Shown: positions 11,226 through 26,068 of the stretch, piece after piece
How positions within the stretch are numbered: the first letter of the stretch is position 1
Layout: each line of letters begins with the position of its first letter
Assembly: GCA_028291405.1 (NCBI GenBank)
Contig: JAQGID010000134.1
Location: 1 to 32,869 of the forward strand
Reading direction: 5' to 3'
DNA: 32,869 nucleotides
DNA from: Rhodospirillales bacterium
GTDB taxonomy: Bacteria; Pseudomonadota; Alphaproteobacteria; ATCC43930; CGMCC-115725
Program-made: the position numbers and the translations under genes
The notes under the pieces: generated by a model
The model's input: the letters and a program-made list of their open reading frames with translations, nothing else
Databases searched by the model: none
What the model was told of the DNA's origin: nothing

Positions 11226-11301
<76 letters not shown>

Positions 11302-11427
11302 TCGCCCTCCGATGCCTCACGAATGCGGACGCCGGAGCGGCGTAGATGCGGTTGCGTGCAGCGGAGCGGGGACCGGGCTCGACCGCGATCGGTCTCTACG
11401 CAACACCTGCGGCTTGCCGCCCCTCGA

Positions 11428-11628
11428 TCATTGCAGCTGGCGCATGCTTCGGACGATCTGCTCGAGGTCGGCAAGGCGGCCTTCGAGGGCGGCGACACGC
11501 TCGGCGACCGACTGCAGGGCGCCGAGCATCGCATCGCGTTCCTCGAGATCGCGAGCCAGCCGTTCTCCGATCGCGGTAATGCCGCGCATGGCCGTGGCGA
11601 GCGCGGTTTCGATCTCGTCTTCGGTCAT
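11428..11628 (-). CDS. small coiled-coil protein, 66 aa
   Basis: A 66-residue frame made almost wholly of heptad-like helix, with segments AIGERLARDLEERDAMLGAL and VAERVAALEGRLADLEQIV. No membrane span or signal is present. Its ATG overlaps the TGA of the short methionine-synthase-like remnant (ATGA), so translation could be coupled to that leader. A GGAAG about 10 bases upstream is a weak ribosome-binding site of its own. The resemblance to UbiK/BMFP-type small coiled-coil proteins is only in general character. It may be a real small protein or a frame left after rearrangement. Confidence 0.5.
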   Translation of the reverse strand: MTEDEIETALATAMRGITAIGERLARDLEERDAMLGALQSVAERVAALEGRLADLEQIVRSMRQLQ

Positions 11629-11684
11629 CGCAGCAGGCTTCCGACGTGTTCGGCGCGGAAGGGCGGCTGCAGTCGTTCGGTCAT
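11625..11684 (-). pseudogene. 5' remnant of a MetE-C-like gene
   Basis: Reading leftward from 11684 the frame gives MTERLQPPFRAEHVGSLLR and then stops. The intact methionine synthase-like protein at 24947 begins MTGRLGPPFRADHVGSLLR, identical at 16 of 19 residues, and the DNA matches at 45 of 57 bases with most differences silent. An upstream GAGGA ribosome-binding site is retained. The rest of the roughly 370-codon gene is missing; the sequence passes directly into the 66-codon coiled-coil frame. It is therefore a truncated paralogue or a short leader peptide derived from one. Confidence 0.75.
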
Positions 11685-11953
11685 GGGGCGATCCTCAACA
11701 TCGTGCGGCGTTCTGCGACGGCCTGCGCCAACCGGATCTGGTGGCCGTGACGAAAATACAGGTCCGAAGCAGGTCCTGGCTACCACATCCGGCCGGATCG
11801 TATAGCGGCAAAGCCGAGTGCCGTGGCCTAACCAGGGCTGCGCGTTGGCGGACTGATAAGCCGGGACAACACAACTCAAGCGTGATTTAAACAATCATCA
11901 ATTTTAATGTTACGATGTCGATCGCGGGTTCCGCTGGTCGGCGAGCAACGCCA

Positions 11954-11992
11954 TTGACATACGGTATCTGGTATACAACAATTCCTCTGCTG
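11954..11992 (+). promoter_or_regulatory. oxlT promoter with candidate GntR operator
   Basis: TTGACA at 11954-11959 is a perfect -35 hexamer; AACAAT at 11977-11982 is a weaker -10 at 17-base spacing. Between and over them lies GGTATCTGGTATACAA (11963-11978) followed by CAATTC and CTGCTG. About 24 of 30 positions recur upstream of the ThDP gene at 13449-13477. The TGGTATACAA core is the kind of dyad bound by FCD-type GntR regulators. The rest of the 11685-12062 gap shows nothing else definite. Confidence 0.6.
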
Positions 11993-12062
11993 CGACGCTT
12001 CCGAGGTCAGCGAACGTGGCCGATGCAAGCGATCGTATAAGATCCGGGAGGAAGAATTGGCT

Positions 12063-13370
12063 ATGGACTCGAAATCCGGCAAAGCACCGACCAATCGCTG
12101 GCTGCAATTGGTCATCGGCATCATCTGCATGGCGATGATCGCCAACCTCCAATACGGATGGACGCTCTTCGTCAATCCGATCAGCGCGGCGCGCGGCTGG
12201 GATCTGAAGAGCATTCAATGGGCCTTCACGATCTTCGTCCTGCTCGAGACGTGGCTCGTCCCGATCGAGGGCTGGTTCGTCGACAAGTTCGGCCCGAGCC
12301 TAGTCGTCGTCTTCGGCGGCGCGCTCTGCGGCATCGCGTGGGTGATCAATGCCTACGCCGATACCCTCAGCCTGCTTTATCTCGGTGCCGCGATCGGCGG
12401 CATCGGCGCCGGCGCGGTCTACGGCACGGCCGTCGGCAACTCGCTGAAATGGTTCCCCGATCGTCGCGGCCTCGCGGCCGGCCTGACCGCGGCGGGGTTC
12501 GGCGCCGGCTCGGCGTTGACCGTCGTCCCGATTGCCGCCGTGATCAAATCGAGCGGCTACCAGTCGGCGTTCCTGTGGTTTGGGATCGGCCAAGGCCTGA
12601 TCTGCGTCGTGCTCGGCTTCTTCCTCAGCCAGCCGCGCAAGGGCGACGTTCCGGAGCCGACGAAAATCCTCGTCGCGCGGCACCAGTATACACCCGGCGA
12701 GATGCTGAAGACGCCAACCTTCTACGTCATGTATGCGATGTTCGTGATGATGGCGGCCGGCGGCCTGATGGCGACGGCGCAGCTCGGCCCGATCGCCAAG
12801 GACTTCAAGATCGCCGACGTGCCGGTCTCGATGCTCGGCATCACCCTTCCGGCGCTCACCTTCGCGCTCTCGATCGACCGCGTCCTCAACGGTGTCACGC
12901 GACCGTTCTTCGGCTGGGTCTCCGACCATATCGGCCGCGAGAATACGATGTTCATCGCCTTCGGCCTCGAGGCGATCGGTATCTGGATGATGAGCCTTTA
13001 TGGTCATAACCCGGTCGCCTTCGTGATATTGACCGGCCTGGTCTTCTTCGCCTGGGGTGAGATCTACAGCCTCTTTCCGGCTACCTGCGGCGATACCTTC
13101 GGGTCGAAATTCGCGACCACCAATGCTGGGCTGCTCTATACGGCAAAGGGGACGGCATCGCTTCTCGTCCCGTTCGCCAACGTGCTGACGGAATGGACCG
13201 GCAGTTGGCATGCGGTTTTCATCACCGCGAGCCTGCTCAACGTCGTCGCGGCGTTGCTCGCGCTCTTCGTATTGAAGCCGATGCGCGTCGCCCAGACGCA
13301 GCGGTCGTTCTCGGCGGAAGAGGGCGCGGCGATGGCGGGCGGCGCCTCGGCTCTGCCTGGTGGACACTGA
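12063..13370 (+). CDS. oxlT: OxlT-like oxalate/formate antiporter (MFS)
   Basis: 435-residue, twelve-span major facilitator resembling Oxalobacter formigenes OxlT, which exchanges oxalate for formate. Shared features are the N-terminal NLQYGWTLFVNP span, FVDKFGPSL in the first loop, the NSLKWFPDRRGLAAGLTAAG segment, and a GEMLKTPTFYVMY segment after the central loop. The two substrate-binding basic residues are kept: Arg280 in NGVTRPFFGW and Lys362 in LLYTAKGTAS, matching OxlT Arg272 and Lys355. ATG 12063 is used; a TTG two codons upstream sits closer to the GGAGG site and is possible. It is transcribed separately, ahead of the ThDP-frc operon. Other 2-oxo or dicarboxylate substrates cannot be excluded. 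Confidence 0.87.
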   Translation: MDSKSGKAPTNRWLQLVIGIICMAMIANLQYGWTLFVNPISAARGWDLKSIQWAFTIFVLLETWLVPIEGWFVDKFGPSLVVVFGGALCGIAWVINAYADTLSLLYLGAAIGGIGAGAVYGTAVGNSLKWFPDRRGLAAGLTAAGFGAGSALTVVPIAAVIKSSGYQSAFLWFGIGQGLICVVLGFFLSQPRKGDVPEPTKILVARHQYTPGEMLKTPTFYVMYAMFVMMAAGGLMATAQLGPIAKDFKIADVPVSMLGITLPALTFALSIDRVLNGVTRPFFGWVSDHIGRENTMFIAFGLEAIGIWMMSLYGHNPVAFVILTGLVFFAWGEIYSLFPATCGDTFGSKFATTNAGLLYTAKGTASLLVPFANVLTEWTGSWHAVFITASLLNVVAALLALFVLKPMRVAQTQRSFSAEEGAAMAGGASALPGGH

Positions 13371-13434
13371 GCTTCGGAACACCACGGGCTGGGCGGCTGT
13401 GTCGTCCAGTCCGTAACGATCCCCGCGGAGCGTC

Positions 13435-13477
13435 TTGCAGGGCGTTCTGGTATACGATATACAAAATTCAACTGCTG
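13435..13477 (+). promoter_or_regulatory. promoter and candidate operator of the ThDP-frc operon
   Basis: TTGCAG (13435-13440), a 17-base spacer and TATACA (13458-13463) form a good sigma-70 promoter. Covering the spacer and -10 is GGTATACGATATACAA (13449-13464), an imperfect dyad of GTATAC and ATATAC, followed by AATTC and CTGCTG. This matches the element upstream of oxlT. Its overlap with the -10 box suggests repression by a bound regulator, most simply the GntR protein encoded at the end of this cluster. Confidence 0.62.
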
Positions 13478-13640
13478 AGGCGGCCGTGATGATGGGGAGG
13501 GCGGATTGGCGATTTACCGAACCTCTCGGCCGCCCCGTCCGAGAGTCACAGACGCCATCGGCGTCCGGCACAGGATCAATCAATAGCGTCGCCCGAGGTC
13601 GATGGGATCGAACGCTGAGCGCAGAGCGAGGAGCGGCATC

Positions 13641-15401
13641 ATGACGACGACAACGACAGCCAGGAATCCCGAGTCGACCACGACGACCGCCGACGACACG
13701 CTGAAGCAGAAGAGCCGCGACGCCTCCGTCATCTCCGGCGGCCATCTCGTCGCCAAGGCCCTGAAGGCCGAGGGCGTCGATACGATCTTCACGCTTTGTG
13801 GCGGCCATATCATCGACATTTACGACGGCTGCGTCGACGAGGGTATCCGGATCATCGACGTGCGGCACGAGCAGGTCGCGGCGCATGCCGCCGACGGCTA
13901 CGCGCGCCAGACCGGCAAGCTCGGCTGCGTCGTGACGACCGCCGGTCCCGGCTTCACCAATGCGATGACCGGCGTCGCGACGGCATTCCGCTCCGAGAGC
14001 CCGGTGCTCCACATCGGCGGCCAAGGCGCGTTGACGCAGCACATGATGGGCTCGCTGCAGGACCTGCCGCACGTCGACATCGCCAAGCCGATCACCAAGT
14101 TCTCGGCCAGCGTCCGCTCGACCGAGCGCGTCGCCGACATGATTGCGATGGCGGCCCGCGAATGCTTCGCCGGCGCGCCCGGCCCGGCCTATCTCGAGAT
14201 CCCGCGCGACATCCTCGACCGCGAGATCGACGTCGCCAAGGCGGTGCTGCCGCAGCCCGGCCACTACCGTTCCTCGACCAAGCAGCTCGGCGACCCCGCC
14301 GACATCGAGAAGCTCGCCGACATCCTCGTCAATGCCGAGCGGCCGGCGATCCTTTTCGGCCAGCAAGTGTGGACGGCACGCGGCCACGAGGAGGCGATCG
14401 CGCTGCTCCGCGGCCTCGACATTCCCGGCTATTTCAATGGCGCCGCCCGCGGCCTGCTGCCGCCCGGCGACAAGCATCATTTCGATCGCACGCGCAGCCA
14501 GGCCTTTGCCAAGGCCGACGTCATCGTCATCGTCGGGACGCCGTTCGATTTCCGCATGGGCTACGGCAAGCGCATCAGCGTGCCGACGCTCGTGCAGATC
14601 GATCTCGACTACCGCACGGTCGGAAAGAACCGCGACATCTCGCTCGGCCTCGTCGGCGACCCCGGCATGATCCTCGGCGCCGTGCTGCAGGCGGCGTCCG
14701 GCCGTCTCAAGAGCGACAAGCGCCAGGCGCGGCAGGATTGGATGAAGCAGCTCAGCGCTGCCGAGGCGGCGGCGACCGAGAAGCTCATGCCGCTCTTCAC
14801 CTCGAACGCCTCGCCGATCCACCCCTATCGCGTCGCCTGGGAGATCAACGAGTTCCTCACTGACGACACGATCTATATCGGCGACGGCGGCGACGTCGTG
14901 ACGATCTCGGCGCAGGCGGTGCGGCCGCGCTCGCCGGGCCATTGGATGGATCCCGGCGCGCTCGGCAGCCTCGGGGTCGGCACCGGCTTTGCGATCGCGG
15001 CGAAGCTCGCCCATCCCAAGAAGGAGGTGCTCTGCTATTACGGCGACGGTTCCTTCGGCATGACGGCCTTCGACATGGAGACGGCGAACCGCTTCAACGC
15101 GCCTTACCTCGCGGTCATCGGCAACAATTCGGCGATGAACCAGATCCGCTACGGCCAGCTTGCGAAATACGGCGAGCAGCGCGGCAATGTCGGCAATCTG
15201 CTGGGCGACGTGGAGTTCGGCAAATTCGCCGAGATGCTCGGCGGCTACGGCGAGGAGGTGCGCGACGCCGCGCAGATCGCGCCGGCGCTGCGCCGCGCTC
15301 GCGAGGAGATCCGGAAGAGCGGCCGCTCGGCGGTCGTCAACATCTGGGTCGATCCCCGCGAATACGCGCCGGGCACCAAAGCCCAGACGATGTACAAGTA
15401 A
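13641..15401 (+). CDS. ThDP-dependent oxalyl-CoA decarboxylase / 2-hydroxyacyl-CoA lyase
   Basis: 586-residue enzyme with the three domains of the acetolactate synthase/oxalyl-CoA decarboxylase group. Glu77 in [17 protein letters not shown] is the cofactor-activating Glu. [18 protein letters not shown] (from residue 468) to GNNSAM is the ThDP-Mg motif. Context (oxlT, frc, formate dehydrogenase) predicts oxalyl-CoA to formyl-CoA plus CO2. However, [16 protein letters not shown] gives Leu139-Gln140 where O. formigenes Oxc has Tyr120-Glu121. That block instead resembles MGAFQEFPQVEACR of human HACL1, which splits 2-hydroxyacyl-CoA into formyl-CoA and an aldehyde. The Oxc C-terminal Ser-x-Arg is also not seen; the tail is [12 protein letters not shown]. 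The start at 13641 has GAGGAG 7 bases upstream. frc follows by 13 bases. Confidence 0.8.
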
Positions 15402-15414
15402 GGAGGGGATGAAG

Positions 15415-16689
15415 ATGAGCAAAGCATTGGACGGCGTCCGCATCCTCGACTTCACGCATGTGCAGTCGGGGCCCACCTGTACTCAGCTTCTCGCCTGGTT
15501 CGGGGCCGATGTCATCAAGGTCGAGCGGCCCGGCGTCGGCGACATCACGCGCGGCCAGCTGCGCGACATCCCCGGTGTCGACAGCCTCTATTTCACGATG
15601 CTGAACCACAACAAGCGGTCGATCACGATCGACAGCAAGCATACCAAGGGCAAGGAGCTGCTCGAGGAGTTGATCCGTACCTGCGACGTGCTGGTCGAGA
15701 ATTTCGCACCGGGCGCGCTCGATCGCATGGGCTTCACCTGGGAACGCGTGCAGCAGCTCAATCCGCGCATGATCATGGCGTCCGTCAAGGGCTTCGGCCC
15801 CGGCCCCTATGAGGAGTGCAAGGTCTACGAAAACGTCGCGCAATGCGCCGGCGGCGCCGCCTCGACGACCGGCTTCGACGACGGCCCGCCACTGGTGACC
15901 GGCGCGCAGATCGGCGACAGCGGCACCGGGCTGCATCTCGCCCTCGGCATCGTCGCCGCACTCTATCAGCGCAACGCCACCGGCCGGGGCCAGCGCGTCC
16001 TCGCGGCGATGCAGGACGGCGTCCTCAACCTCTGCCGCGTCAAGCTGCGCGACCAGCAGCGCTTGGCGCACGGGCCGCTCAAGGAGTACCCGCAATATCC
16101 CTTCGGGGAGTTCGGCGAGTCCGTGCCGCGCGCCGGCAACGCCTCGGGTGGTGGCCAGCCGGGCTCGATTCTGAAGTGCAAGGGCTGGGAGAGCGATCCC
16201 AACGCCTACATCTACTTCATCACCCAGGCGCCGGTCTGGGACAAGATCTGCAAGGTCATCGGCAAGGAAGAGTGGATCACCGATCCGGAATACGCCAAGC
16301 CTGAGGCACGGCTGCCGCATCTCGTCGAGATCTTCGCCACGATCGAGGCCTGGACGATGACCAAGGGCAAGCTCGAGGCGATGGCGATCCTCAACGAGTA
16401 CGACATCCCCTGCGGGCCGATCCTCTCGATGAAGGAGATCGCGGAGGAGCAGTCGCTGCGCGATACCGGCACCGTCGTCGAGATCGATCATCCGACGCGC
16501 GGCAAGTACCTCTCGGTCGGCAACCCGATCAAGATGTCGGACAGCATCACCGAGGTGACGCGCTCGCCGCTGCTCGGCGAGCATACCGACGAGATCCTGC
16601 GCGACGTGCTGAAGTTCGACGAGGCGAAGATCGCCGAGTTCAAGAACTCGGGCGCGATGACGCCGCCGACGCGCGTCGCCGCGGAATAG
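15415..16689 (+). CDS. frc: formyl-CoA:oxalate CoA-transferase
   Basis: Moves CoA from formyl-CoA to oxalate, giving formate and oxalyl-CoA; class III CoA-transferase, cytosolic homodimer. 424 residues against 428 in O. formigenes. The match is close throughout: [14 protein letters not shown] (with the conserved Gln), [34 protein letters not shown], the nucleophile Asp168 in IGDSGTGLH (Asp169 in the reference), [10 protein letters not shown], the flexible glycine loop SGGGQPG and [10 protein letters not shown]-like [17 protein letters not shown] at 15401-15406 favours the second ATG (15415) over 15409. It is the clearest functional anchor of the cluster, sharing an operon with the preceding ThDP enzyme and probably the acyl-CoA synthetase. 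Confidence 0.96.
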
Positions 16690-16694
16690 AAACC

Positions 16695-16725
16695 CGCTCC
16701 CTCTCCCGCGAGCGGAGAGGGAGCG
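16695..16725. repeat. 12-bp hairpin between frc and the acyl-CoA synthetase gene
   Basis: CGCTCCCTCTCC (16695-16706) and GGAGAGGGAGCG (16714-16725) are perfect complements around a 7-base loop. No T-run follows, so it is not a classical terminator. The CCCTCTCC/GGAGAGGG pattern is a common alphaproteobacterial extragenic palindrome. It may trim or stabilise the mRNA and lower expression of the downstream genes relative to frc. Confidence 0.75.
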
Positions 16726-16764
16726 ATCGCATGACGATGAACGCAGAAATCTCGGGAGCTCTCG

Positions 16765-18906
16765 ATGGCTGACGCAGCGATGGACAAGGGTGCGGTTCGC
16801 AGGATTCTCGATAGCGCCAAGGCGGCCGGGCGAAGCTCGCTGACGGCGCCCGAAGGCAAGGAGATCTGTGACGCCTACGGCATCGCCGTGCCGCAGGAAG
16901 CGGTCGCGAGATCAGCCAGCGAGGCGGCGTCGCTCGCGACGAAGATGGGCTTCCCGGTTGTCCTCAAAATCGTTTCGCCCGACATCCTGCACAAGACCGA
17001 GGCCGGCGGCGTGCTCGTCGGACTCGCCAGCGACGACGAGGTCGCGCAGGGCTACGCGACGATCCTGGCGAATGCCAAAAAGTACAAGGCGGATGCCAAG
17101 ATCGACGGCGTCCAGGTGCAGCAGATGCTGAACGGCGGCCAGGAGGTCATCGTCGGCGCCGTCACCGACGGCAGCTTCGGCAAGCTCATCGCCTTCGGCA
17201 TGGGCGGCGTTCTCGTCGAGGTGCTGAAGGACATCACCTTCCGCCTCGCGCCGGCGACCAAGGACGACGCTCTCTCGATGCTCGACGGCATTCAGGCGGC
17301 CGAGATGCTGAAGGGCGTGCGCGGCAGCGAGCCGGTCAGCCGCGACGCCTTGGCGAATCTCATCGTCCGTGTCTCGCAGCTGATCAGCGATTTTCCCGAG
17401 ATCTCCGAGATGGATCTCAACCCGGTCTTCGCGACGGCGAAGGGCGCGGTCGCCGCCGACGTCCGCATCGTCATGGATTTCAACCCGGCGCCGCAGCGCC
17501 ATCGGCCGAGCCAGGAAGAGATCCTCGCGTCGATGAATCGCATCATGCGTCCCGATGCGGTGGCGGTGATCGGCGCTTCGGCCGAGGACGGCAAGATCGG
17601 CAACTCGGTAATGAAGAACCTGATCAACGGCGGCTACCAGGGCAAGATCTATCCGATCCATCCCAAGGCCGAGGAGATCATGGGCCTCAAAGCCTATAAA
17701 TCGGTCAAGGACGTGATCGGCGAGATCGACGTCGCGGTCTTCGCGATCCCCGCCAAGTTCGTCGCCGCCGCGCTGATCGAGTGTGGCGAGAAGAAGATTC
17801 CCGGCGCCGTGCTGATCCCATCGGGCTTCGCCGAGACCGGCAACGTCGAGGGCCAGGACGAGATCCAGGCGATCGGCCGCAAGTACAACGTCCGGCTGAT
17901 GGGGCCGAACATTTACGGCTTCTACTACACTTGGAAGAATCTCTGCGCGACCTTCTGCACCGCCTATGACGTGCGCGGTCACGCGGCGCTCTCCTCGCAA
18001 TCGGGTGGCATCGGCATGGCGATCATCGGCTTCTCGCGCTCGGCCAAGATGGGCGTCTCGGCTATCGTCGGGCTCGGCAACAAATCGGATCTCGACGAGG
18101 ACGATCTCCTGACCTTCTTCGAGCAGGACGAGAACACCCATATCATCGCCCAGCATTGCGAGGATCTGAAGGACGGTCGTTCCTTCGCCGAGATCGCCAA
18201 GCGCGTCACGAAGAAAAAGCCGGTCGTCATGCTCAAGGCCGGCCGCACCTCGGCCGGCGCCAGGGCGGCGAGCTCGCACACCGGCGCCCTCGCCGGCAAC
18301 GACAAGATCTACGAGGACGTGCTGAAGCAGTGCGGCGTCATTCGCGCCCGCAGCTTGCGCGACATGCTCGATTTCGCGCGCGGCATACCCAAGCTGCCGA
18401 CGCCGAAGGGCGAGAATGTCGTCATCATCACCGGCGCGGGCGGCTCCGGGGTGCTGCTATCGGATGCCTGCGTCGACAACGACGTCCGGCTGATGGCGAT
18501 GCCGCCCGATCTCGACGCCGCCTTCCGCAAGTTCATCCCGCCGTTCGGCGCCGCCGGTAACCCGGTCGACATCACCGGCGGCGAGCCGCCGGCGACCTAC
18601 AAGAACACGGTGAAGCTTGGACTCGAGGACGAGCGTATCCATTCTCTCATTCTCGGCTACTGGCACACGATCGTGACGCCGCCGATGGTCTTCGCGCATC
18701 TCATCGTCGACGTCGTCGAGGAGATGAAGGCCAAGGGTATCCATAAGCCTATCGTCGCCTCGCTCGCCGGCGACGTTCAGGTCGAGGAGGCCGCGGAGTT
18801 CCTTTACGACCACGGCATCCCGTCCTATGCATATTCGACGGAGATCCCGGTCGCGGTGCTGGGAGCGAAATACAAATGGGCGCGCGGCGCCGGCCTATTG
18901 GGGTAG
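16765..18906 (+). CDS. NDP-forming acyl-CoA synthetase family protein
   Basis: 713-residue fused acyl-CoA synthetase of the ADP-forming acetyl-CoA synthetase superfamily. An ATP-grasp domain is N-terminal (about 1-235, with VVLKIVSPDILHKTEAGGV and SEMDLNPVF). A CoA-binding Rossmann domain follows (about 255-360, RPDAVAVIGASAEDGKIGNS), then succinyl-CoA synthetase-like domains (about 365-700). The phospho-His loop is SSHTGALAGN with His505; SSQSGGIGMAI is another family signature. Domain order is permuted relative to the common CoA-binding-first proteins. The substrate is not readable. In this cluster it could charge oxalate, formate or a 2-hydroxyacid with CoA, priming the Frc cycle. It lies 35 bases before fdhB. 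Confidence 0.85.
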   Translation: MADAAMDKGAVRRILDSAKAAGRSSLTAPEGKEICDAYGIAVPQEAVARSASEAASLATKMGFPVVLKIVSPDILHKTEAGGVLVGLASDDEVAQGYATILANAKKYKADAKIDGVQVQQMLNGGQEVIVGAVTDGSFGKLIAFGMGGVLVEVLKDITFRLAPATKDDALSMLDGIQAAEMLKGVRGSEPVSRDALANLIVRVSQLISDFPEISEMDLNPVFATAKGAVAADVRIVMDFNPAPQRHRPSQEEILASMNRIMRPDAVAVIGASAEDGKIGNSVMKNLINGGYQGKIYPIHPKAEEIMGLKAYKSVKDVIGEIDVAVFAIPAKFVAAALIECGEKKIPGAVLIPSGFAETGNVEGQDEIQAIGRKYNVRLMGPNIYGFYYTWKNLCATFCTAYDVRGHAALSSQSGGIGMAIIGFSRSAKMGVSAIVGLGNKSDLDEDDLLTFFEQDENTHIIAQHCEDLKDGRSFAEIAKRVTKKKPVVMLKAGRTSAGARAASSHTGALAGNDKIYEDVLKQCGVIRARSLRDMLDFARGIPKLPTPKGENVVIITGAGGSGVLLSDACVDNDVRLMAMPPDLDAAFRKFIPPFGAAGNPVDITGGEPPATYKNTVKLGLEDERIHSLILGYWHTIVTPPMVFAHLIVDVVEEMKAKGIHKPIVASLAGDVQVEEAAEFLYDHGIPSYAYSTEIPVAVLGAKYKWARGAGLLG

Positions 18907-18941
18907 GCCGCGCCGGGACGCTGGATCCGAACGGAGCCACG

Positions 18942-20690
18942 ATGACGGTACATGACGGCGCGACGGCTGATCCGCACAAGGCAATCCATCCCGGCGCCGG
19001 GCGGCGTCGCGGCCGCAACATGCCGAAGGGAAGACAGGTCGATCTCGGGGCACTCTTCGAGGTCCGCGCCTTGCTCGGGACGCGATCGCGCCAGCGCGAT
19101 CTGCTGATCGAGCATCTGCATCTGATCCAGGACGAGTACGGCCATCTCTCGGCGGCGCATCTCGCGGCGCTCGCCGAGGAGATGAACCTCTCGCTCGTCG
19201 AGGTCTTCGAGGTCGCCTCGTTCTACGCGCATTTCGATATCGTCCTCGACGGCGAGACGCCGCCCCCGCCATTGACGGTTCGCGTCTGCGACAGCCTGAC
19301 CTGCGCCCTGAGCGGCGCGCAGGCGCTTCTCGACGCGCTACCTGCCCGGCTCGGCTCCGGCGTCCGCGTCGTCCGCGCGCCATGCATGGGCGGCTGCCAC
19401 AACGCGCCGGTCACGGCAATCGGCCACGCTCTGCACGAGCACGCCACGATCGACAGCGTCGTCGCCGCCGCCACCGCCGGCGAGACGCATCCGCATGTCC
19501 CCGACACTATCGACTTCGCAGCCTATCGCGCCGCCGGCGGCTACCGCGTGCTGGAGGACTGCCTCGCCGGCAAGCGCGACGTCGAGAGCATGCTCAAGCT
19601 GCTGGAGGATTCGCAGCTCCGCGGCCTCGGCGGCGCCGGCTTTCCGACCGGGCGGAAATGGCGCCTCGTCGGAGCGCAGCCGGCGCCTCGGTTGATGGCG
19701 GTCAATGCCGACGAGGGCGAGCCCGGCACCTTCAAGGACCGCTACTACCTCGAGAACGATCCGCATCGTTTCCTCGAAGGCATGCTGATCGGTGCCTGGG
19801 CCGTCGGCGTCACCGAGATCTACATCTACCTGCGCGACGAATACCCGCAATGCCGCGAGCTCCTCGAGCAGGAGATCGCCAAGGTCGAGGCCGCTGGTCT
19901 GACGCGCGGGCTGCCGATCCACATGCGGCGCGGGGCCGGCGCCTATATCTGCGGCGAGGAATCCGCCATGCTCGAGAGCATTGAGGGCAAGCGCGGCCTG
20001 CCGCGCCACAAGCCGCCCTATCCGGCGGAGGTCGGTCTGTTTGGTCGGCCGACGCTGATCAACAACGTCGAGACGCTGTTCTGGATCCGCGACATCGTCG
20101 AGCAGGGGCCCGCGGTCTTCGCCAAGGACGGGCGGCATGGCCGCAAGGGAATGCGCAGCTTCTCGGTCTCGGGCCGCGTCAAGTCGCCCGGGGTCAAGCT
20201 GGCGCCGGCCGGCATCACCGCCAACGAGCTGATCGCGGAATATTGCGGCGGCATGCTTGATGGCCACGTCTTCAAGGCCTATCTGCCAGGGGGCGCCTCG
20301 GGTGGCGTGCTGCCGGCCAGCATGGCCGACGTGCCGCTGGATTTCGGCACGCTCGAGCCGCTCGGTTGCCTGATCGGCTCGGCGGCCGTCGTCATCCTCT
20401 CGGACAAAGACAGCATGCGCGAGGTCGCGCTAAACCTGCTGCGCTTCTTCGAGGACGAGAGCTGCGGTCAGTGCACGCCCTGCCGTGCCGGCACCGAGAA
20501 GGCGGTCAAGCTGATGGAGCGGCAGCGCTGGGACGAGGGGTTGCTCGACGATCTGACGCGGGTGATGATGGATGCGTCGATCTGCGGCCTCGGCCAGGCC
20601 GCGATGAACCCGGTACGCTCGGTGCTGACGCATTTCCGCGAGGAGCTCGGCCTGGGCGAGCGGCCGGCTAGCGATAGGAATGGGACATGA
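18942..20690 (+). CDS. NAD-dependent formate dehydrogenase, fused NuoE-NuoF-like beta subunit
   Basis: 582-residue diaphorase subunit passing electrons from the formate dehydrogenase alpha subunit to NAD. The N-terminal third is NuoE-like with a 2Fe-2S site (C116, C121, C148, C152, in CDSLTC and CMGGC). The rest is NuoF-like: FMN-binding LGGAGFPTGRKW, NAD-binding NADEGEPGTFKDRYYLEND, GAGAYICGEESAMLES and a 4Fe-4S site in SCGQCTPCRAGT plus a later ICGLGQ cysteine. The fused form and the PKGRQVDLGALFE start resemble Fdh1B of Methylorubrum. ATG 18942 has GGAG 5 bases upstream; an in-frame ATG at 18876 lies within the preceding gene. Its stop overlaps the alpha subunit start by 4 bases. Confidence 0.93.
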   Translation: MTVHDGATADPHKAIHPGAGRRRGRNMPKGRQVDLGALFEVRALLGTRSRQRDLLIEHLHLIQDEYGHLSAAHLAALAEEMNLSLVEVFEVASFYAHFDIVLDGETPPPPLTVRVCDSLTCALSGAQALLDALPARLGSGVRVVRAPCMGGCHNAPVTAIGHALHEHATIDSVVAAATAGETHPHVPDTIDFAAYRAAGGYRVLEDCLAGKRDVESMLKLLEDSQLRGLGGAGFPTGRKWRLVGAQPAPRLMAVNADEGEPGTFKDRYYLENDPHRFLEGMLIGAWAVGVTEIYIYLRDEYPQCRELLEQEIAKVEAAGLTRGLPIHMRRGAGAYICGEESAMLESIEGKRGLPRHKPPYPAEVGLFGRPTLINNVETLFWIRDIVEQGPAVFAKDGRHGRKGMRSFSVSGRVKSPGVKLAPAGITANELIAEYCGGMLDGHVFKAYLPGGASGGVLPASMADVPLDFGTLEPLGCLIGSAAVVILSDKDSMREVALNLLRFFEDESCGQCTPCRAGTEKAVKLMERQRWDEGLLDDLTRVMMDASICGLGQAAMNPVRSVLTHFREELGLGERPASDRNGT

Positions 20691-23449
20691 GCGAGCCGAT
20701 CAAGTTCCTGCTCGACGGCACCGAGGTCGAGGCGTTGCCGGGCGAGAGCATCTGGCAGGTTGCAAACCGGCTCGGCACCGAGATTCCGCATCTCTGCTAC
20801 AGCACGGCCAAGGGGTATCGCGCGGACGGCAATTGTCGCGCCTGCATGGTCGAGGTCGAGGGCGAGCGCGTCCTTGCCGCCTCGTGCATCCGCAAGCCGA
20901 CACCAGGAATGAAGGTCAAGAGCGCCAGCGAGCGTGCCGTCGCCTCCCGCAAGCTGGTCTTCGAGCTGCTCGTCGCCGATCAACCCGATCGCGCGATCGC
21001 GCACGACCCCGATTCGAGCTTCTGGCGCTGGGCCGACCGCGTCGAGGTCGGCGACAGCCGCTTCCCGCACGATGCGCGGCCCGTCCCCGATCGGTCGCAC
21101 CCTGCGATGGCGGTGCACCTCGACGCCTGCATCCAATGCAATCTGTGTGTCCGTGCCTGCCGCGAGGTCCAGGTCAACGACGTGATCGGCATGGCGGCGC
21201 GCGGCCATCACGAGAAGATCGTCTTCGACTTCGACGATCCGATGGGCGACAGCACCTGCGTCGCCTGCGGCGAATGCGTCCAGGCCTGCCCGACCGGCGC
21301 GCTGATGCCGGCGACGCAGGTCGATGCCGACGGCGTGTTCATGAACGCGCCCGATCGCAAGGTCGACAGCGTCTGCCCCTATTGCGGCGTCGGCTGCCAG
21401 CTTACCTACGAGATCAAGGATGACCGCCTCATCGCGGTCGAGGGCCGCGACGGGCCCGCGAACCAGGGGCGGCTCTGCGTCAAGGGCCGCTTCGGCTTCG
21501 ACTACGTCAACCATCCGGAGCGGCTGACCGTGCCGCTGATCCGCAAGGCGGGCGTACCGAAGGATGATGTCGCGATCGACCCGGCCAATCCGCTGACGCA
21601 TTTCCGCGAGGCGACGTGGGAAGAGGCGCTGCAGGTCGCCGCCGGCGGACTGAAGCGAATCCGCGACCGTGACGGCGGCAAGGCGCTCGCCGGCTTCGGC
21701 TCAGCCAAGGGCTCGAACGAGGAGGCCTATCTCTTCCAGAAGCTTGTGCGCATCGGCTTCGGCACGAACAACGTCGACCATTGCACCCGGCTCTGCCACG
21801 CCTCGTCCGTGGCGGCGCTGATGGAAGGGATCGGCTCGGCGGCGGTGACGGCGCCCTTCATGTCGGCGAAGGATGCCGATGTCATCATCGTGATCGGCGC
21901 CAATCCGACGCAGAACCATCCGGTCGCCGCGACTTTCTTCAAGAACGCGGCGAAGCGCGGCGCCAAGCTGATCGTCATGGATCCGCGCGGCCAGGCCCTG
22001 TCGCGTTATGCGACGCACATGCTGCAGTTCAAGCCGGGGCGCGACGTCGCGATGCTGAACGCGATGCTCAACACGATCATCGAGGAAGGCCTTTACGACA
22101 AGCAATATGTCCAGGCCCATGCCGACGAGTTCGAGGGGCTGAAAGCGCATATCGTCGACTACACGCCTGAGGCGATGGCCGACATCTGCGGCATCGACGC
22201 GTCGACGTTGCGCGAGGTGGCGCGGCTCTATGCCCGTGCCGAGGGCGCCATCATCTTCTGGGGCATGGGCATCTCGCAGCATGTCCACGGCACCGATAAC
22301 GCCCGCTGCCTGATCGCCTTGGCGATCGTCACCGGCCAGGTCGGGCGGCCGGGCACCGGGCTGCATCCGCTGCGCGGCCAGAACAACGTCCAGGGCGCAT
22401 CGGACGCAGGGCTGATCCCGATGTTCTTCCCCGACTACCGCAGCGTCGAGGACCCGGAATTTCACAAGTTCTACGAGGAGCTGTGGGGCGGCACGATCCC
22501 GCCGAAGCGCGGCCTGACCGTCGTCGAGATCATGGACGCGGTCCACGAGGACGTCATCAAGGGCATGTACATCATGGGCGAGAACCCGGCAATGTCGGAT
22601 CCCGACGTCAGCCACGCCAGGGCTGCCCTCGCCAAGCTCGAGCATCTCGTCGTCCAGGACATCTTCCTGACCGAGACGGCGCGCTACGCCGACGTCGTCC
22701 TGCCGGCCTCGGCCTGGCCGGAGAAGGACGGCACGGTGACGAACACCAACCGGCAGGTGCAGATGGGCCGCAAGGCGCTGCCGATGCCGGGCAATGCCCG
22801 CGAGGATTGGGTGGTGATCCAGGAGATCGCCCAGCGTCTCGGCCTTAACTGGAACTACAGCCATCCCAGCGAGATCTTCGCCGAGATGACCGAGGCGATG
22901 CCGTCTCTCGCCAACATCACATGGGACCGCCTCGAGCGCGAGAGCTCGGTCACATATCCCTGCGCCGCGCCCGACCAGCCCGGCGACGACATCGTCTTCG
23001 GCGACGGCTTCCCGACCGAGAACGGCCGCGCCAAGCTGGTCCCGGCTGCGATCATCAACCCAGCCGAGGAGCCGGACGACGCTTATCCGATGGTGCTCTC
23101 CACCGGCCGCCAGCTCGAGCATTGGCATACCGGCGCGATGACCCGGCGCTCGTTCGTGCTCGACGATCTCGAGCCCGAGGCGGTCGCCTCGCTCGCGCCG
23201 TCGGACATCCGCAGCATGGGCATCGCCCCCGGCGCGATGGTCCGCGTCGCGACGCGGCGCGGCGAGATCGAGCTGAAGGCGCGCTCCGACAGCGCCGTGC
23301 CGCCGGGCATGATCTTCATCCCGTTCTGCTATGCCGAGGCGGCGGCCAACATCCTGACTAACCCGCAGCTCGATCCCTTCGGCAAGATCCCGGAGTTCAA
23401 GTATTGTGCTGCCAAGGTCGAGCCCGTGATCGCCGATGGAGCGGAGTAG
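20687..23449 (+). CDS. NAD-dependent formate dehydrogenase alpha subunit (Mo/W-bis-MGD)
   Basis: 920-residue catalytic subunit oxidising formate to CO2. Domains in order: a ferredoxin-like 2Fe-2S domain (C37, C50, C53, C67), a region with two 4Fe-4S motifs (DACIQCNLCVRAC and CVACGECVQACP), a proximal 4Fe-4S site beginning SVCPYCGVGCQL with the last Cys in GRLCVKGRFG, then the molybdopterin oxidoreductase body and a C-terminal dinucleotide-binding domain (STGRQLEHWHTGAMTRR). Cys370 in DHCTRLCHASSV occupies the Sec/Cys metal-ligand position, followed by the catalytic His, so this is a cysteine-type enzyme. Mo or W cannot be told apart. No fdhD or small delta subunit is nearby. The GntR gene starts on the base after its stop. 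Confidence 0.95.
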   Translation: MSEPIKFLLDGTEVEALPGESIWQVANRLGTEIPHLCYSTAKGYRADGNCRACMVEVEGERVLAASCIRKPTPGMKVKSASERAVASRKLVFELLVADQPDRAIAHDPDSSFWRWADRVEVGDSRFPHDARPVPDRSHPAMAVHLDACIQCNLCVRACREVQVNDVIGMAARGHHEKIVFDFDDPMGDSTCVACGECVQACPTGALMPATQVDADGVFMNAPDRKVDSVCPYCGVGCQLTYEIKDDRLIAVEGRDGPANQGRLCVKGRFGFDYVNHPERLTVPLIRKAGVPKDDVAIDPANPLTHFREATWEEALQVAAGGLKRIRDRDGGKALAGFGSAKGSNEEAYLFQKLVRIGFGTNNVDHCTRLCHASSVAALMEGIGSAAVTAPFMSAKDADVIIVIGANPTQNHPVAATFFKNAAKRGAKLIVMDPRGQALSRYATHMLQFKPGRDVAMLNAMLNTIIEEGLYDKQYVQAHADEFEGLKAHIVDYTPEAMADICGIDASTLREVARLYARAEGAIIFWGMGISQHVHGTDNARCLIALAIVTGQVGRPGTGLHPLRGQNNVQGASDAGLIPMFFPDYRSVEDPEFHKFYEELWGGTIPPKRGLTVVEIMDAVHEDVIKGMYIMGENPAMSDPDVSHARAALAKLEHLVVQDIFLTETARYADVVLPASAWPEKDGTVTNTNRQVQMGRKALPMPGNAREDWVVIQEIAQRLGLNWNYSHPSEIFAEMTEAMPSLANITWDRLERESSVTYPCAAPDQPGDDIVFGDGFPTENGRAKLVPAAIINPAEEPDDAYPMVLSTGRQLEHWHTGAMTRRSFVLDDLEPEAVASLAPSDIRSMGIAPGAMVRVATRRGEIELKARSDSAVPPGMIFIPFCYAEAAANILTNPQLDPFGKIPEFKYCAAKVEPVIADGAE

Positions 23450-24184
23450 ATGTCAGGCGCGACCGTCAAAATTCGGGAGCTGCCGCCGTTGAACGATGCC
23501 ATGCCGCCCCTCGTCGTCCAGCCGCTCGAGCCCTCGCTCAGCTTTCGCGACCGCGCCTATGCTGCACTGAAGCAGGCGATCATGGACGCCGACATCTACG
23601 GGCAGAAGCGCGAGATCCGCCTCGACGAGCGCCAGCTGTCGGCGGCGCTCGGCGTCTCGCGCACGCCGGTGCGCGAGGCGATGACGCTGCTGGAGCAGGA
23701 GGGTTTCCTGCGCTCGGAGCCGCGCCGGGGCGTCTTCATCATCCGCAAGACCAAGCGTGAGATCCTCGAGATGATTGAGGTCTCGGCGGGGCTCGAGAGC
23801 ATGGCGGCGCGGCTCGCGGCGACCCGCGCGACGCCCGAAGAGATCGCCAATCTGCGCCGCATGTTCGACGATTTCGTCAACGAAAACCCGGAAGAGCACA
23901 TCGACGAATATTCCGATGCGAATCTGGAGTTCCACCAGGCGATCGTGCGGATGGGCCGCTCAGAGCTGATCGCGCGGATGATCGACAATCTCTTCGTGCA
24001 TGTCCGCGCCATCCGCCGCGTCACGATCGGCCAGGCGCATCGCGCCGAGCGCTCGATCGTCGATCACATGAACATCATCGAGGCGCTCGCCGCGGGCGAC
24101 GCCGACCGCGCCGGGCAGCTCGTGCTCGACCACGCGCTGGGCCTCGCCGCCCATGTCGAGGAGCACTGCACCTTCCTGGAGTGA
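23450..24184 (+). CDS. GntR-family regulator, FCD subfamily
   Basis: 244-residue transcription factor. The winged helix-turn-helix occupies about residues 28-95, with RLDERQLSAALGVSRTPVRE and the wing segment GFLRSEPRRGVFI. The C-terminal all-helical FCD ligand domain carries the expected metal-binding acidic and His residues in DANLEFHQAIV, VDHMNIIEAL and DHALGLAAHVEEH. Such proteins sense small organic acids or acyl-CoAs. It follows fdhA with no gap, so it is made with the enzymes it probably controls; the paired TGGTATAC elements before oxlT and the ThDP gene are the likely targets. The inducer might be oxalate, oxalyl-CoA or formate, which is inference. Confidence 0.92.
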   Translation: MSGATVKIRELPPLNDAMPPLVVQPLEPSLSFRDRAYAALKQAIMDADIYGQKREIRLDERQLSAALGVSRTPVREAMTLLEQEGFLRSEPRRGVFIIRKTKREILEMIEVSAGLESMAARLAATRATPEEIANLRRMFDDFVNENPEEHIDEYSDANLEFHQAIVRMGRSELIARMIDNLFVHVRAIRRVTIGQAHRAERSIVDHMNIIEALAAGDADRAGQLVLDHALGLAAHVEEHCTFLE

Positions 24185-24946: not shown

Positions 24947-26068
24947 ATGACGGGACGCCTCGGCCCACCCTTCCGCGCCGACCACGTCGGCAGCCTGCTT
25001 CGCCCCGAGACGGTGCGGCGCGCCCGAGGCGACCGGAAATCCGGCACCATCACGCAGGCGGAGCTTCGGGCGATCGAGGATGCAGCGATCCGCGAGGTGG
25101 TCCGCCGTCAGGAGGCAATCGGCCTACGGCTCGTCACCGATGGCGAAATCCGCCGGGAATCCTGGCACATGGATTTCTACGAGCAGATTGGTGGCGTCGT
25201 GCAGACCGGCGGCAAGGGCGTCGTGCCGTTCCGCAACGAGGGTGGCGAGGTGCCGTTCGAGGTCGACGGCGTGCGCATTACCGCGCCGCTGACGCTCAAG
25301 AAGACCATCTTCGGGGAGGATTTCGCATTCCTGAAATCGGTCGCGCATGCGACGCCCAAGCTGACGATCCCGGCGCCGAGCGTCCTCCATCGCCGCGGTG
25401 GCCCCGCGCTGGTCGACCCCGAGGTCTATCCCGACATCGAGCAGGTCTGGCACGATCTTACCGCGGTCTATGCCGATGAGGTCGCCGCGCTCGGCGCGCT
25501 CGGCTGTAGCTACCTGCAGCTCGACGATACGAGTTTTGCAACGCTCTGCGACCCGGCGCATCGCGCCGCGATGAAGCAGCTCGGCGCCGACGGCAGCCGC
25601 ATCCACGAGACCTATATTCGCCTGTTCAACGAGAGCCTCGCGAAGAAGCCCGCGACGATGGCGGTCTGCACCCATACCTGCCGCGGCAACTTCCGCTCGG
25701 CGTGGTTCGCCGAGGGCGGTTACGACTACATCGCCGAGGCGCTGTTCAACGAGCTGAAGGTTGATGGGTTCTTCCTCGAATACGACGACGAGCGCTCCGG
25801 CGGCTTCGAGCCGCTGCGCTTCGTCCCCAAGGGGAAGATGGTGGTGCTCGGCCTTGTCACGACGAAGCGGCGCGCGCTCGAGGCCAAGGACGAGCTCAAG
25901 CGGCGCATCAAGGAGGCGGCGCGCTATGTGCCGCTCGACCAGATTTGCCTGTCGCCGCAATGCGGCTTCTCCTCGACCGTGGCGGGAAACGACATTTCGG
26001 AGGAGGAGCAATTCGCCAAGCTGCGCCTCGTCGTCGAGACGGCGCGCGAAATCTGGGGCGAGGCGTGA
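24947..26068 (+). CDS. MetE C-domain-like (cobalamin-independent methionine synthase II) protein
   Basis: 373-residue single-domain relative of the MetE catalytic C-terminal half, like the YxjG/YxjH group often annotated as 5-methyltetrahydropteroyltriglutamate-homocysteine methyltransferase. The signature RADHVGSLLRP is at the N-terminus. Candidate zinc ligands are His243 and Cys245 in CTHTCRGNF and Cys339 in LSPQCGF; YLQLDDTSF is the conserved acidic block in the middle. The methyl donor and acceptor for this group are mostly untested, so methionine synthesis is not assured. GGGAG precedes the ATG. Its stop overlaps the AhpD-like gene start (GTGA). A truncated copy of its first 19 codons lies at 11684. 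Confidence 0.85.
   Translation: MTGRLGPPFRADHVGSLLRPETVRRARGDRKSGTITQAELRAIEDAAIREVVRRQEAIGLRLVTDGEIRRESWHMDFYEQIGGVVQTGGKGVVPFRNEGGEVPFEVDGVRITAPLTLKKTIFGEDFAFLKSVAHATPKLTIPAPSVLHRRGGPALVDPEVYPDIEQVWHDLTAVYADEVAALGALGCSYLQLDDTSFATLCDPAHRAAMKQLGADGSRIHETYIRLFNESLAKKPATMAVCTHTCRGNFRSAWFAEGGYDYIAEALFNELKVDGFFLEYDDERSGGFEPLRFVPKGKMVVLGLVTTKRRALEAKDELKRRIKEAARYVPLDQICLSPQCGFSSTVAGNDISEEEQFAKLRLVVETAREIWGEA

Follow-up and report, generated by a model that had tools for sequence, protein, structure and literature searches.

What does a 19-codon fragment of a methyltransferase gene represent when it lies on one side of an oxalate locus and an intact gene of the same family lies on the other? The window, the whole stretch of 32,869 nucleotides analysed here, contains on its minus strand (11684-11625) an ATG followed by 18 sense codons and TGA, which together read MTERLQPPFRAEHVGSLLR. 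On the plus strand, at 24947-26068, a gene starting MTGRLGPPFRADHVGSLLRPETV encodes a methyltransferase of 373 residues that passes NCBIfam NF005085 (PRK06520, '5-methyltetrahydropteroyltriglutamate--homocysteine S-methyltransferase') with 435.8 bits against a cut-off of 313, and Pfam PF01717 (Meth_synt_2) with 72.9 bits against a cut-off of 21. Both belong to the YxjG-type family. The initial annotation saw the short frame as the truncated start of a MetE-like gene, and it gave strand, coordinates and the match to the gene at 24947 (16 of 19 residues, 45 of 57 bases) exactly. The differences are mostly silent, as it also stated, with seven codons differing silently and three by residue. As set out below, the short frame, hereafter the stub, is most likely a real but ordinary gene remnant.

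The likeness of the stub to the family is not due to chance, as indicated by its profile score and by the tblastn E values. Against a profile built from 32 family proteins it attains 22.5 bits (E = 1.8e-8, seven frames tested) over profile positions 2-24, and tblastn with the intact protein recovers it at E of about 5e-6 over 56 loci and 8.4e-4 over the whole genome. The stub shares with the YxjG-type / PRK06520 paralogues the start PPFRA(D/E)HVGSLLR, correctly spaced from the ATG. Of its 13 core residues, 12 are as in most members; the exception is a D to E replacement, and none of the changes is damaging. Such an undamaged core fits a recent event and selection equally well. GAGG, a possible ribosome-binding site, is located 8 bases upstream of the ATG. 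The stub has the family-specific N-terminus recognized by NF005085 / PF01717 but not the complete catalytic domain: it differs from its paralogues in ending after 19 codons, and nothing is matched beyond profile position 24. Because the catalytic domain is absent, the stub cannot be an enzyme. Its description as a truncated gene start stands, given the family-specific beginning, the possible ribosome-binding site and the missing remainder of the gene.

Whether the stub and the gene at 24947 are related through a single local event is a separate matter. The locus was said to lie between inverted related sequences next to tRNA-Phe, and this geometry is true, the two sequences having opposite orientation at the two sides, as would be expected if the 13-kb oxalate segment between them had been inverted or duplicated in inverted form. 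However, the arrangement is not specific to the pair. The organism's own genome (6.48 Mb, 461 contigs) holds nine near-full-length family matches at E <= 1e-60, the gene at 24947 included, and at least one family member occurs in 28 of 39 family-level genomes. Compared with 34 distinct family starts, the stub shares between 11 and 16 of 19 residues (mean 13.4). Among the members themselves, 76 of 561 pairs reach 16 of 19 or better; the starts were drawn from 37 loci, of which four (L026, L029, L081, L082) failed the motif filter and one (L078) gave two, and the filter is itself biased toward conserved starts. By residue the stub is closest to the gene at 24947, whereas by base a copy on another contig (C177) comes first, with 48 of 57 identities. 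The stub has at most 14 consecutive bases in common with the gene at 24947, and upstream of the two the DNA shows no similarity. Furthermore, a DNA search of the genome with positions 11302-12056 returned, besides the query itself, only three family genes, each at the conserved start, with C177 ranked first. The stub thus resembles the gene at 24947 because the members all start near-identically over this near-invariant stretch. Given the closer C177 copy, the 14-base run and the family-wide start, a duplication or inversion specific to the pair is unsupported. In the relatives examined, no family gene adjoins the oxalate genes, and the inverted segment for which the initial annotation proposed to look was not seen. 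We consider an inverted duplication or inversion of the segment extremely improbable. The family is strongly expanded in this organism, with nine matches (E of 1e-60 or better) versus none in the other genome of the genus.

The oxalate locus (12057-23449, plus strand) comprises oxlT, a TPP-dependent decarboxylase, a CoA-transferase, a CoA-ligase and a two-gene formate-dehydrogenase-like set. Its first gene, oxlT (12057-13370, plus strand), reads away from the stub. One relative, G010, has oxlT, oxc, frc and a CoA-ligase gene together, with no family methyltransferase in the stretches read. The 19 oxlT loci of other genomes (L038-L056, up to 1.5 kb on each side) contain no family gene, and tblastn over the 56 loci places the family gene only in loci of the organism's own genome. 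In a second relative, G007, dehydrogenase genes adjoin oxlT in the opposite orientation. A near-palindrome, TGGTATACAA, lies upstream of oxlT at 11969-11978 (plus strand) between TTGACA and AACAAT hexamers, with an expectation of 0 in 100 shuffles; it resembles an operator for the GntR/FCD regulator whose gene lies at 23450-24184. The sequence CTGGTATACA near oxlT is also found in 2 of 16 loci of relatives (L045 and L046). A literature search on oxalate genes returned no papers.

If the stub is the beginning of a gene, the rest must be accounted for. The distance from the stub ATG to the end of tRNA-Phe is 383 bases, and the intact gene is 1122 bases long. Among the frames tested from 11302-11684, the family profile detects only positions 2-24, plus a single plus-strand score below zero. 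A full gene at this place might have gained the TGA after codon 19 and decayed thereafter. Past the TGA the stub frame reads PKT, as in some members (P-K-E in C177, whose codons there are CGA-CCG-AAG), and the profile continues to match as far as position 24; both would suit such decay. Nothing alike follows beyond PKT, though, and a codon model built from 16 genes of the window gives the stub frame past the TGA -62 bits, versus +27 bits for the overlapping frame described below. Even then, the loss of at least 740 bases would remain to be explained, and decay in place appears very unlikely.

Gene order points to a breakpoint. The tRNA-Phe(GAA) gene (11226-11301, plus strand) closes a conserved hisD-UPF0262-infA-maf-rng-tRNA-Phe block. 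Its hisD, UPF0262, maf, rng and tRNA-Phe genes keep the same order in G001, G010 and G007, and the IF-1 frame (infA) is matched in G001 and G010. To the right of tRNA-Phe the sequence varies among relatives. The contig of G001, which the family search included as the sole other representative of the genus, breaks off 9 bases after tRNA-Phe. G010 has a Phage_integrase gene starting 29 bases beyond the tRNA gene (L089:8776-10110, minus strand), and G007 has a luciferase-like gene immediately beyond it. The position of the G010 integrase gene suggests that elements integrate at tRNA-Phe in this family. In all three genomes the best oxlT match is on a different contig from the tRNA-Phe block, which places a breakpoint between tRNA-Phe and oxlT.

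A wider set of 80 named loci around maf, 62 of which carry tRNA-Phe, was searched by tblastn with the family protein, the stub, the overlapping frame P0001, OxlT and the G010 integrase; none gave a match at E 1e-3, and two weak matches appeared at E 1. The best named maf match is from Stella sp. ATCC 35155 (75%), which makes an alphaproteobacterial origin of the window probable. In the relatives examined, no family methyltransferase lies beside tRNA-Phe or oxlT. The initial annotation had suggested comparing the interval from tRNA-Phe to oxlT in relatives for an intact paralogue. None was seen, but oxlT is beside tRNA-Phe in none of those examined, which leaves this check without a proper comparison. 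A motif scan covering 54 named loci whose sequence extends 1 kb or more beyond tRNA-Phe flagged three, one of them (L168) a candidate integrase-like sequence, and a general integrase hotspot beside tRNA-Phe was rejected.

Truncated gene remnants occur at rearrangement breakpoints next to tRNA genes. The stub is like them in being a short 5' end with the remainder gone, in its setting of variable gene order and in the G010 integrase gene at the corresponding place. The window differs in the parts tested, as the subset of its frames scanned against Pfam includes no integrase gene and the tRNA 3' end is present in the window in one copy only (21-mer with up to three mismatches, 16-mer with up to two), although a matching border may lie beyond the contig. 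The junction could also be chimeric. The assembly is a 461-contig draft, and the junction was found in no second assembly among those searched. Yet the stub is identical to none of the family starts compared, the best being the 48 of 57 bases given above, which makes a misjoin inside a shared repeat unlikely, and we regard an assembly artefact as highly improbable.

The stub does not end in isolation. Its TGA (11627-11625) overlaps the ATG (11628-11626) of P0001, a coiled-coil-like frame of 66 residues at 11628-11428 on the minus strand, in the form ATGA; this overlap was missed in the initial annotation. The +27 bits of P0001 on the codon model amount to 0.41 per codon. Only 11 of 2935 off-frame windows score as high (10 of 1203 when windows with stops are left out) in leave-one-gene-out controls, and for this reason P0001 is probably coding, as judged from its codon use. 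Of 39 family genomes, a single one contains P0001, the organism's own. Searches for its relatives gave 593 pattern matches in genome contigs, of which none was confirmed, 25 in viral contigs, again with none confirmed, and none in plasmids. Against Pfam and NCBIfam it yields sub-threshold matches only, mostly to coiled-coil models. We considered whether P0001 could be the C-terminal end of the methyltransferase joined by an internal deletion, for which the family profile gives no match. A phage origin was also rejected: P0001 matches PHROGs phrog_5211 at E 6.5e-4, and of nine heptad-preserving shuffles one reached 4.9e-4 and two 1.5e-3. As shuffled versions score like P0001 itself, this match reflects coiled-coil background.

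Leader peptides and upstream frames can couple to the next gene through an ATGA overlap, which raises the question of whether the stub has been kept as a translated frame, with stop and restart at the ATGA initiating synthesis of the orphan coiled-coil protein P0001. Like ATGA-coupled leaders, the stub is a short frame with its own ribosome site and a stop overlapping the next start. That ribosome site (GAGG, -5.6 kcal/mol) is stronger than the one of P0001 (-3.5 kcal/mol), and the latter, GGAAG, sits within the stub, where it is made by the Gly codon GGA. This codon is rare, accounting for 25 of 680 Gly codons in the 16 window genes, and occurs in 1 of 34 family starts. The coding-like codon use of P0001 favors the same reading. 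Unlike such leaders, the stub is not conserved, lacks any attenuator-like structure and derives from the start of an enzyme gene. The cut-off frame was found in 1 of 43 genomes of the order, the organism's own, and in 3 of 385 genomes of a class sample, where the two others carry the HVG-x-L-x-R-stop pattern outside any family context and were dismissed as chance. The absence of the short frame from relatives argues against an old, conserved leader, which the initial annotation had offered as its alternative. Furthermore, the predicted RNA fold around the stub is no better than that of shuffled sequences (z 1.44; 192 of 200 shuffles equally or more stable), a terminator scan found 0 terminator-like sites, and tRNA is the only match to Rfam. 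A term search in PMC7857596, a paper from the literature on this methionine synthase family, gave no use of YxjG or leader peptide. Co-option of the stub as a leader seems unlikely, even though the tidy ATGA overlap hints somewhat at a function and counts against a plain remnant.

The reading that we favor, and hold to be likely, is that the stub is the 5' remnant of a methyltransferase paralogue that was truncated by a deletion or rearrangement between tRNA-Phe and oxlT and fused to P0001. A YxjG-type paralogue located in the variable stretch between these two genes would have lost about 95% of its length by deletion or rearrangement. Codon 19 would thereby have been fused to the beginning of P0001, a small frame unrelated to the gene, and the ATG of P0001 would supply the TGA. 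Donors abound, since the genome contains nine near-full-length members. No relative was found with a full gene at the place of the stub, which counts against this reading. The stub, the missing remainder, the conserved family start, the ATGA overlap and the differing gene order are direct observations, from which we infer the deletion event and its timing. The remnant can probably still be read as a peptide of 19 residues preceding P0001.

For the family, these results carry a caution. Where starts are near-invariant over 19 codons and nine paralogues share a genome, a short pairwise match is no evidence of local duplication or inversion. If the stub does drive P0001, the locus would illustrate on a small scale how the start of a dead gene can provide an expression signal, and should the stub act as a leader, that signal would have been borrowed from an abundant paralogue family.
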